Shown: positions 30,364 through 36,523 of the stretch, piece by piece
Numbering within the stretch: position 1 is the stretch's first letter
Layout of the letters: each line of letters opens with the position of its first letter
From: Thalassococcus sp. S3
GTDB lineage: Bacteria; Pseudomonadota; Alphaproteobacteria; Rhodobacterales; Rhodobacteraceae
DNA: 64,000 nt
Direction of reading: 5' to 3'
Assembly: GCF_004216475.1 (NCBI RefSeq)
Contig: NZ_CP022303.1
Coordinates: 2,108,001 to 2,172,000, forward strand
Notes under the pieces: generated by a model
What the model saw: the letters and a program-made list of their open reading frames with translations, nothing else
The model's database searches: none
Told to the model about the DNA's origin: nothing
Program-made: the position numbers and the translations under genes

Positions 30364-35646
<5,283 letters not shown>

Positions 35647-35653
35647 CCGATGC

Positions 35654-35688
35654 GTTCTAAAAAGTTCGCAAATGTTCCTAAAAAGTTC
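35654..35688 (+). promoter_or_regulatory. LexA (SOS) operator: four GTTC repeats
   Basis: Direct GTTC repeats begin at 35654, 35664, 35674 and 35685. The spacings are 6, 6 and 7 bases, and the last pair (35674-35688) is an exact match to the alphaproteobacterial LexA box GTTC-N7-GTTC. The box lies 65 bases before the ATG of a 34-aa membrane microprotein and about 30 bases after the recG stop. The motif is seen in sequence; LexA control is inferred from the established Rhodobacter consensus. Confidence 0.75.
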
Positions 35689-35753
35689 TTTACGCGGCGG
35701 CTCGAATGTGAGAACAAAAGGTCAACAAAGGGTTAATCGACGGAGAAGCCGCC

Positions 35754-35858
35754 ATGCTGAGAAATATCAAGGCAACTGATCTTCTGACGGATCTGATCGG
35801 TGTTTCCGCCCTTGTCGTCATGCTTGTCGCCGGGTTGCATCTGCCCGGTCTTGTTTAA
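35754..35858 (+). CDS. 34-aa single-pass membrane microprotein under a LexA box
   Basis: The frame encodes 34 residues: a charged N-terminus (MLRNIKATDLLTD) and one hydrophobic helix (LIGVSALVVMLVAGLHL) with a short PGLV tail. A GGAG ribosome site lies 8-11 bases upstream, and a SOS operator lies about 65 bases upstream. The architecture resembles SidA of Caulobacter, a short SOS-induced inner-membrane protein that blocks cell division; I see no clear residue-level similarity. If translated, it is a candidate SOS division inhibitor or stress peptide. Confidence 0.6.
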   Translation: MLRNIKATDLLTDLIGVSALVVMLVAGLHLPGLV

Positions 35859-35867
35859 GGTTCTGCC

Positions 35868-36046
35868 TGCGATCTCGCGCCGGACGCTCCGCATCCCTTT
35901 CCCCAGGTGATGCATCGGGTGACCTGCCTGTCCTACCCCCCCGGAGGTGCTGCCTCACACGCCTCTTCTTCGGAGCTTTTCCGGGTCCCACGCGAGACTT
36001 GCATACTGACCGCCGCCATCCGCCCGGGATGCGCGGCGGTTTTTTC
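35868..36046 (+). ncRNA. Candidate structured small RNA, 6S-like architecture
   Basis: The noncoding stretch after the microprotein folds by eye into a long rod: TGC/GCA, TCTCGCG/CGCGAGA (35873-35879 with 35991-35997), GGAC/GTCC, GCTCCG/CGGAGC (35886-35891 with 35971-35976), a large C-rich internal bubble, and an apical stem CAGGT/ACCTG (35904-35908 with 35922-35926). A strong terminator follows directly. A rod with a central bubble and a terminal stem is the 6S RNA plan, but I cannot score it against the family model. It might instead be the 3' part of a longer SOS transcript. Confidence 0.45.
36009..36046 (+). terminator. Strong rho-independent terminator
   Basis: An 8-bp outer stem (ACCGCCGC with GCGGCGGT, 36009-36016 and 36033-36040), extended by ATCC/GGAT and a C-G pair around a small loop, is followed by a run of six T. 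It closes the microprotein/small-RNA transcript. The gene for the IscU-like protein ends at 36071 from the other side. Confidence 0.9.
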
Positions 36047-36070
36047 TTTTTGGAAGGAAAGAGAGAGGAT

Positions 36071-36523
36071 TTAGGCGCAGTGAACCTGTTTCGCCTGGTC
36101 CATCGCTTCCGCTGCCGCTTCGAGCGACAAAAGGATCGAGGCGTGGCGGTTCTTGTAGTCGCGTGCGGGCAAAAGCACTTCCAGACCGTCAAATGGCGCG
36201 TCCGGTGCGTCGCCTCCGGTCTTGAGCATGGCTTTGAGTTGATCGCGCGCGGTCTCTATCTGCTCTTGCGTGGTCCCGACAATTGCGGCCCCGACCACGG
36301 ATGCGGCGGCCTGACCCAAGGCGCAGGCTTTTACATCCTGTCCAAATTCGGCGACCCGGCCGTCTTGGATTGTCACATCCACCGTAACGGTCGATCCACA
36401 GAGCGGGGAGCGGCGTTTCACGCTTGCATCCGGCGCCTCCAGCCGGCCGAGATGCGGAATATCCGCAGCCAAAGCCAGGATGCGGGACGAATAGAGCTTG
36501 ATCAGATCGGTGTCGCCGGACAT
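36071..36523 (-). CDS. Iron-sulfur cluster scaffold, IscU/NifU-N family
   Basis: A 150-aa protein of the IscU-like family that carries nascent iron-sulfur clusters. It has two of the usual cluster cysteines (SPLCGS and KACALGQAAAS) and a third-position region with LLPARDYKNRHASILL, where canonical IscU has Cys. The absence of a cysteine there marks the alphaproteobacterial side branch whose role is less clear than that of IscU or SufU. It is divergent from hisI. Confidence 0.82.
   Translation of the reverse strand: MSGDTDLIKLYSSRILALAADIPHLGRLEAPDASVKRRSPLCGSTVTVDVTIQDGRVAEFGQDVKACALGQAAASVVGAAIVGTTQEQIETARDQLKAMLKTGGDAPDAPFDGLEVLLPARDYKNRHASILLSLEAAAEAMDQAKQVHCA

Follow-up and report, generated by a model that had tools for sequence, protein, structure and literature searches.

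A unit of LexA-type operators, a predicted membrane microprotein, and a structured 3' RNA, usually found behind recG in Rhodobacteraceae

RESULTS AND DISCUSSION

Layout of the unit

We describe a single-gene unit of ~330 nucleotides (nt) that occurs throughout the Rhodobacteraceae, usually behind recG, and that we read as repressed by LexA and as yielding two products, i.e., a membrane microprotein and an RNA in the 3' untranslated region (3' UTR). We give this reading a probability of about 0.6. Computation established the operators, selection on the coding frame, and compensatory changes in the RNA fold, and it showed that the three are linked. Rhodobacteraceae (Ruegeria, Phaeobacter, Sulfitobacter, and relatives) are common marine bacteria, and we know of no account of how they halt division during DNA damage; the unit is a widely conserved candidate for such a halt.

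The copy described here lies in a 64,000-nt stretch of DNA from Thalassococcus sp. S3 (the window), whose host genome is 5.0 Mb. The features of the locus are as follows (coordinates are those of the window).

33556-35646: recG, the upstream neighbor of the unit
35654..35688, + strand: array of four GTTC half-sites starting at 35654, 35664, 35674, and 35685 (spacings of N6, N6, and N7)
35674-35688, + strand: LexA box GTTCCTAAAAAGTTC, an exact GTTC-N7-GTTC formed by the last GTTC pair
35689..35717, + strand: putative promoter between the two operators, proposed from conserved bases and spacing
35712..35726, - strand: second, inverted LexA-like site GAAC-N7-CAAC with an imperfect outer half, 38 bp from where the first box starts
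35742..35745, + strand: Shine-Dalgarno sequence GGAG, 8 nt 5' of the ATG
35754..35858, + strand: frame of the 34-amino-acid (aa) microprotein, MLRNIKATDLLTDLIGVSALVVMLVAGLHLPGLV (conservation, dN/dS, and predicted helix)
35863..36009, + strand: structured 3' UTR RNA (models R1 and R2, covariation, and fold stability)
36008..36051, + strand: intrinsic terminator, CCGCCGCC...GGCGGCGG followed by a T-rich run
36071-36523, - strand: SufU-like gene facing the unit
Beyond the SufU-like gene: hisI-type gene

The end of the LexA box is separated from the ATG at 35754 by 65 bases, and the open frame holds no ATG, GTG, or TTG further 5' of this ATG. On rereading the sequence, we found the GTTC array, the exact box, the 65-base gap, the GGAG, and the 34-codon frame to be just as claimed in the original prediction, which had placed a LexA operator and a membrane microprotein at 35654..35858. 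That stretch does contain the array and the frame, and it is too short for the unit, which takes in the inverted site, the 3' RNA, and the terminator (to 36051). The second operator, a six-residue deletion in the window copy of the protein, and the conserved 3' UTR RNA were additions to that prediction.

LexA-type operators and a putative promoter

As a bare pattern, GTTC-N7-GTTC occurred at chance level, both in the window (1 observed versus 2.08 expected) and genome-wide (124 versus 141 for the reversed control pattern), and we therefore dropped the bare box as evidence. GTTC-N7-GTTC has been described as the LexA box of Caulobacter (PMC12700426). Given that exact copies lie directly upstream of the host's own lexA (2670024-2670038; profile match from 2670081) and recA (other strand, 2242479-2242493; profile match from 2242589), it is the right motif for this genome.

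Of 133 loci inspected in relatives, we excluded eight, namely, four with no match and four that scored ≤9 bits (long frames without relation to the family, or a fragment); the other 125 are the family members used here. Judging from these sequences, the box at the recG locus is secured by its conservation and not by its bare frequency. An exact box was present ≤200 bp upstream of the start in 124 of the 125 members, and among the genomes sampled the combination of a LexA-type operator with a membrane microprotein behind it was confined to this family, which bears out the arrangement originally proposed. The exception (L111) lacks the exact box and still has a GTTC array. When the 124 rows were anchored on the box, the GTTC located 10 bp before it was 90 to 96% conserved per base; relatives thus keep the last three half-sites of the array. 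The inverted site (GAAC-N7-[C/G]AAC) was detected in 118 of the 125 members, and of 116 pairs of inverted site and box, 109 had a spacing of 38 bp, 4 of 37 bp, and 3 of 39 bp. Three loci (L112, L117, and L119) have the inverted site in perfect form, GAAC-N7-GAAC. The combined pattern GTTCTTTAC-N14-16-TGAGAACAAA was found in 18 of 61 genomes, as a single copy in each, versus 0 for the reversed control. Three of the pattern-positive genomes (G023, G034, and G035) had been unmatched in a single-protein search, and inspection revealed a similar frame behind the pattern in each.

Between the operators of the window copy, we recognized a -35-like TTTACG (35689-35694), a 17-nt spacer, a TG (35709-35710), and the hexamer GAACAA (35712-35717). 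Relatives have TTTACA at this place and, 17 nt on, GAACAA with TG before it. These elements suggest a promoter framed by the two operators, with transcription starting near 35724-35725, close to a conserved CAACA. A sigma-70 consensus scan of both strands gave no promoter-like site at the locus. GAACAA is a poor -10 hexamer, and most genomes have CAAC instead of GAAC as the outer half of the inverted site; the inverted site could be a promoter or start-site element rather than an operator. We consider control of the unit by LexA highly likely.

The microprotein

A family profile matched 372 of 394 family genomes at E ≤ 1 (26 of these, by our own count, more weakly than E = 1e-3), and 462 relatives were found in the protein database (E ≤ 0.01). 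Among the matches listed, 33 of 120 relatives bore names, each of them "hypothetical" or "uncharacterized" protein. The expectation that gene callers would miss the frame was hence right only in part, as relatives are annotated in public records. Among the database matches listed, the named relatives of both the window RecG and the microprotein belong to Rhodobacteraceae or Roseobacteraceae.

The microprotein frame is under purifying selection in the family. Across 152 distinct 40-codon sequences, dN/dS was 0.11 over 51 close pairs, and reading the same 51 pairs in shifted frames gave values of 1.2 and 10.5. Over 31 independent pairs, dN/dS was 0.20, and pN was smaller than pS in 30 of the 31. 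Residues M1, D19, G22, and L34 were invariant in 152 of 152 sequences, and P37 was present in 151. Loss of the frame among relatives was one of the outcomes named as refuting the original prediction, and the frame proved to be conserved (125 members, 79 of the 80 recG loci described below, and dN/dS of 0.11 to 0.20). A Shine-Dalgarno-like purine motif was located at -16 to -4 (13 bases) in 122 of the 125 members. We hold it very probable that the family's frame is translated and has a function.

The usual length of the protein is 40 aa. At 34 aa, the window copy was the sole form of its kind among 204 proteins (125 plus 79, with some genomes counted twice); it lacks six residues between an N-terminal IK and the DLIG (DxxG) motif. 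In the same stretch, a 44-residue microprotein encoded at seven loci (L218 to L220, L224, L225, L231, and L237; mostly Marivita) has four additional residues, as determined by eye.

The window protein is hydrophobic over one stretch, with a best Kyte-Doolittle mean of 2.31 for 19 residues, and a single strongly hydrophobic stretch was detected in 151 of 152 family sequences. AlphaFold predicted one helix for the window copy, spanning residues 7 to 28 (mean pLDDT, 84.8; pTM, 0.42). Hydropathy and structure prediction agree on the one membrane helix that had been read from the sequence at the outset. Beyond the DxxG motif, 202 of 204 proteins contain no K, R, D, or E, and the net charge of the N-terminal part ranges from -2 to +2. 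Searches of Pfam, NCBIfam, and PHROGs with the window protein gave no match, and searches of the same databases with 48 members gave scattered matches (1 to 3 members each; E, 0.003 to 0.05) and no shared family. The product is predicted to be a very small single-pass inner-membrane protein, as SidA-type inhibitors are.

A structured RNA in the 3' UTR

Common to the 3' UTRs are CTGCCTGCG, CCTGTCCC, and CTGCCTGTCC in addition to a GC-rich terminator, and folding of single sequences produced the same shape in many genera, i.e., a bulged closing stem, three hairpins, and the terminator. In the window, the closing stem P1 consists of 35868-35890 paired with 35972-36003, with a 3' bulge GUCCCA at 35985-35990 (consensus, AUCCCA), and encloses hairpins P2 (35891-35913), P3 (35917-35938), and P4 (35943-35966). 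Motifs of the CUGCC/CUGUCC type are located at the 5' end of the RNA and in the loops of P2 to P4. When 43 whole 3' UTRs were aligned with plain MAFFT, the terminator alone was recovered; the RNA domain was missed because its stems are too variable.

We built two models, R1, which was seeded on 20 closer sequences, and R2, which was derived from 64 R1 matches; the E values of both are rough. At E ≤ 0.01, R1 detected the RNA in 64 of 100 family loci, including 54 of 90 nonseed loci. On recG loci, R1 matched 63 of 67 at E ≤ 0.1 and 56 at E ≤ 0.01, and it matched none of 32 control loci taken from the window's own genome; this set drew on 99 further sources, contained one seed sequence and some genomes already sampled, and left out 13 of the 80 recG loci. 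In the 64-match alignment, 90.4% of the cells could pair, and two-sided changes were present in 28 of 30 modeled pairs. These changes amounted to 297 cells, compared with 73 in shuffles and 52 to 78 with slid partners, and the covariation score was 0.461 (0.177 for shuffled alignments; 0.065 to 0.087 for slid ones), in an alignment that was fitted to the structure, which favors it, and that came from one family with some genomes represented twice. Support was best for P1, P2, and P4 and weakest for P3 (75 to 84% of cells paired).

Given that the alignment had been fitted to the structure, we tested R2 on loci outside its training set. At E ≤ 0.01, it matched 20 of 25 unseen loci; of four loci added to these, three were matched, and of the 32 controls, none. 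In total, the RNA was detected by R2 in 105 of the 125 members (85 of 100, a set that contains the 64 training rows, plus 20 of 25). The RNA and terminator of the window (35863-36051) had a folding energy of -85.2 kcal/mol (z = -6.04), and 0 of 200 shuffled sequences were as stable. For the RNA without the terminator, z was below -2 in 35 of 40 members. These results identify the 3' UTR RNA, with near certainty, as a true structured element. A search of Rfam with the window region 35400-36200 gave no match up to E = 1, and a structured RNA that is absent from Rfam and attached family-wide to an SOS-type gene is unexpected in itself.

The motif CUG[C/U]C was present 4.03 times per RNA, versus 1.04 times in shuffles (64 sequences). 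With its exposed CUGCC/CUGUCC motifs, the RNA is probably regulatory; for action in trans, our estimate falls just short of even odds.

Terminator and transcript

Seven GC pairs of the terminator were invariant in 43 of 43 sequences, the remaining 5 of its 12 pairs had two-sided changes, and GCGGCGGTT was found in the terminator region in 136 of 204 cases. A simple terminator scan did not list the terminator at 36008-36051. Measured from the presumed start to the terminator, the transcript comprises ~330 nt (328 nt in the window; median of 332 nt in the 97 loci having both patterns).

We considered control of translation in cis by the 3' UTR, which was unsupported on average. Over 97 transcripts, predicted pairing between the Shine-Dalgarno sequence and the 3' UTR averaged 9%, and the mean openness of the Shine-Dalgarno sequence was 0.29 both with and without the 3' UTR. 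Partial pairing was predicted in three loci (L002, 0.41; L010, 0.45; L011, 0.63).

Distribution, linkage to recG, and co-occurrence with lexA

To follow the linkage, we used the best 80 of 440 RecG relatives, chosen irrespective of the unit. The gene was located downstream of recG in 79 of these 80 closest records, and the box was ≤400 bp from the end of recG in 78; at L173, the operator and gene lie behind an insertion. The sole locus of the 80 without the unit behind recG was that of an uncultured Sedimentitalea (L198). The unit is not tied to recG: at L131, the gene, operator, and RNA are present and recG is absent from the 1.2 kb upstream, and at some loci 300 to 620 bp separate recG from the unit.

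In a class-wide sample of 289 genomes, the protein was detected in 4 and the RNA in 4 (once per genome), all from the window's own family; 265 of the unmatched genomes are of unstated kinship, and the RNA search, with stricter filters and ≤11 candidates scored per genome, could have missed weak copies. A search with one relative of the microprotein (P0109) gave no match in 72,556 plasmid records.

A lexA gene was found in 378 of 394 family genomes, and its presence is therefore of little weight. In a set of 347 good genomes, a microprotein match at E ≤ 1e-3 was detected in 305 of 341 with lexA and in 2 of 6 without it (Fisher p = 0.002; hand tally), a comparison in which some of the six lexA-less genomes are fragmented, two keep the unit, and the profile misses real copies (e.g., G023). 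As support for SOS control, this co-occurrence is weak. One genome in ~300 contigs (G093; locus L256) gave no lexA match and keeps the operator, frame, and RNA; lexA may be absent from this assembly merely by incompleteness.

Proposed mechanism and alternative explanations

In the reading that we favor, LexA would bind both sites and block the promoter in between. DNA damage would lead to cleavage of LexA, releasing the unit, and the resulting transcript would run from the presumed start through to the terminator. The microprotein would span the inner membrane once with its N terminus in the cytoplasm, and its uncharged helix, with the invariant D, G, and L and the near-invariant P, would bind a membrane partner. 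The CUGCC/CUGUCC motifs of the RNA would act either by base pairing to G-rich segments in other mRNAs or by binding a protein. The unit may couple DNA damage to both a halt in division and RNA-based regulation. In its most elaborate form, the proposal is a "two-armed" SOS checkpoint RNA, in which a septation-stopping microprotein is joined to a new class of branched RNA that silences mRNAs or titrates an RNA-binding protein; we regard this form as rather doubtful. Because the operator, start codon, invariant residues, and RNA fold are all defined, the roles of protein and RNA can be separated by mutation and expression.

The step from membrane protein to division relies on analogy with SidA of Caulobacter crescentus, a LexA-controlled protein of 29 aa that is reported to interact with FtsW (PMC4211646), and by this analogy the microprotein would pause septation. 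Both systems are alphaproteobacterial and combine a GTTC-N7-GTTC-type operator with a tiny single-pass inner-membrane protein. In contrast to SidA, the family protein is longer (40 aa usually, 34 aa here) and has its own invariant D, G, and L and near-invariant P, and its gene lies behind recG and carries a structured 3' RNA. The features in common are size, membrane helix, and operator type, and we did not file the protein under SidA. A role as a division or envelope checkpoint inhibitor is offered as a tentative proposal, somewhat below an even chance. The protein might instead be a LexA-controlled modulator of another membrane process (e.g., a transporter, a protease, or a respiratory complex): many characterized single-helix microproteins modulate larger membrane proteins, and no feature here is specific to the divisome. 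We judge this fairly unlikely in view of SidA, YneA, and SosA, SOS-controlled small membrane proteins of other bacteria that are described as division inhibitors.

The locus also resembles type I toxin-like SOS genes of the TisB/DinQ kind, whose microprotein would depolarize the membrane and slow growth while the RNA controls translation in cis. TisB/IstR-1 and DinQ of Escherichia coli likewise combine an SOS-controlled membrane peptide with a structured transcript, and LexA control, one membrane helix, and small size are TisB-like traits; the partial pairing of Shine-Dalgarno sequence and 3' UTR predicted in three loci points the same way. However, TisB has charged residues inside an amphipathic membrane helix, whereas the helix here is uncharged in all but two of the 204 proteins, and for this reason we did not file the protein under TisB-like toxins. 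As to an antisense RNA partner, the two-strand promoter scan, which gave no sigma-70-like site, is weak evidence either way. Furthermore, the 3' UTR does not on average sequester the Shine-Dalgarno sequence, the operator pattern or RNA is single-copy in each genome in which it was found, its place behind recG is mostly fixed, and the plasmid records gave no match to the one relative searched; we consider a toxin unlikely. Another alternative makes the RNA the functional product, i.e., an SOS-induced, trans-acting small RNA with C-rich motifs, and leaves the microprotein secondary or the frame merely regulatory. Strong covariation, a terminator of its own, and the fourfold excess of CUG[C/U]C agree with this, but the purifying selection on the protein is clear and its residues are invariant, and 20 of the 125 protein loci gave no R2 match at E ≤ 0.01 (which may reflect limited sensitivity of the model), so that such an RNA-centered explanation appears quite improbable. 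Mere coincidence of a GTTC box with a short intergenic frame behind it would fit the bare frequency of the box in the window and genome; it is refuted because box, spacing, frame, and RNA are all conserved family-wide, and it has a negligible probability. We thus retain the LexA-repressed unit with two products as the best explanation.

Relation to previous reports and known RNAs

Literature titles and abstract openings named no SOS gene or RNA behind recG in Rhodobacteraceae; the full texts of Erill 2004 and of a paper on Ruegeria pomeroyi small RNAs might mention one. The term "recG" is absent from the main text of a D. shibae study with a survey of LexA sites (PMC6473078), and in the available text of a 2010 survey of structured RNAs (PMC2864571), it appears solely within a reference title.

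Rfam searches with eight loci gave five matches, all below gathering scores, including one to sX13 (RF02232) inside the RNA of L080 (E = 0.95; 24.2 bits versus a cutoff of 50). We take sX13 of Xanthomonas and the CcsR "cuckoo" RNAs of Rhodobacter sphaeroides to be likenesses, presumably sharing several exposed C/U-rich stretches and an intrinsic terminator. Unlike these, the RNA described here has CUGCC/CUGUCC rather than CCUCC motifs and is attached to a coding frame. Dual-function RNAs such as SgrS/SgrT likewise carry a small frame alongside a conserved RNA portion in one transcript, whereas the present unit has a LexA-type operator and a branched domain with several C-rich motifs. One locus (L205, Albibacillus) has a 182-nt 3' segment in which an extra 5' stretch, with predicted hairpins of its own, precedes the usual RNA domain; R1 places this domain at 4901-5019 in L205.
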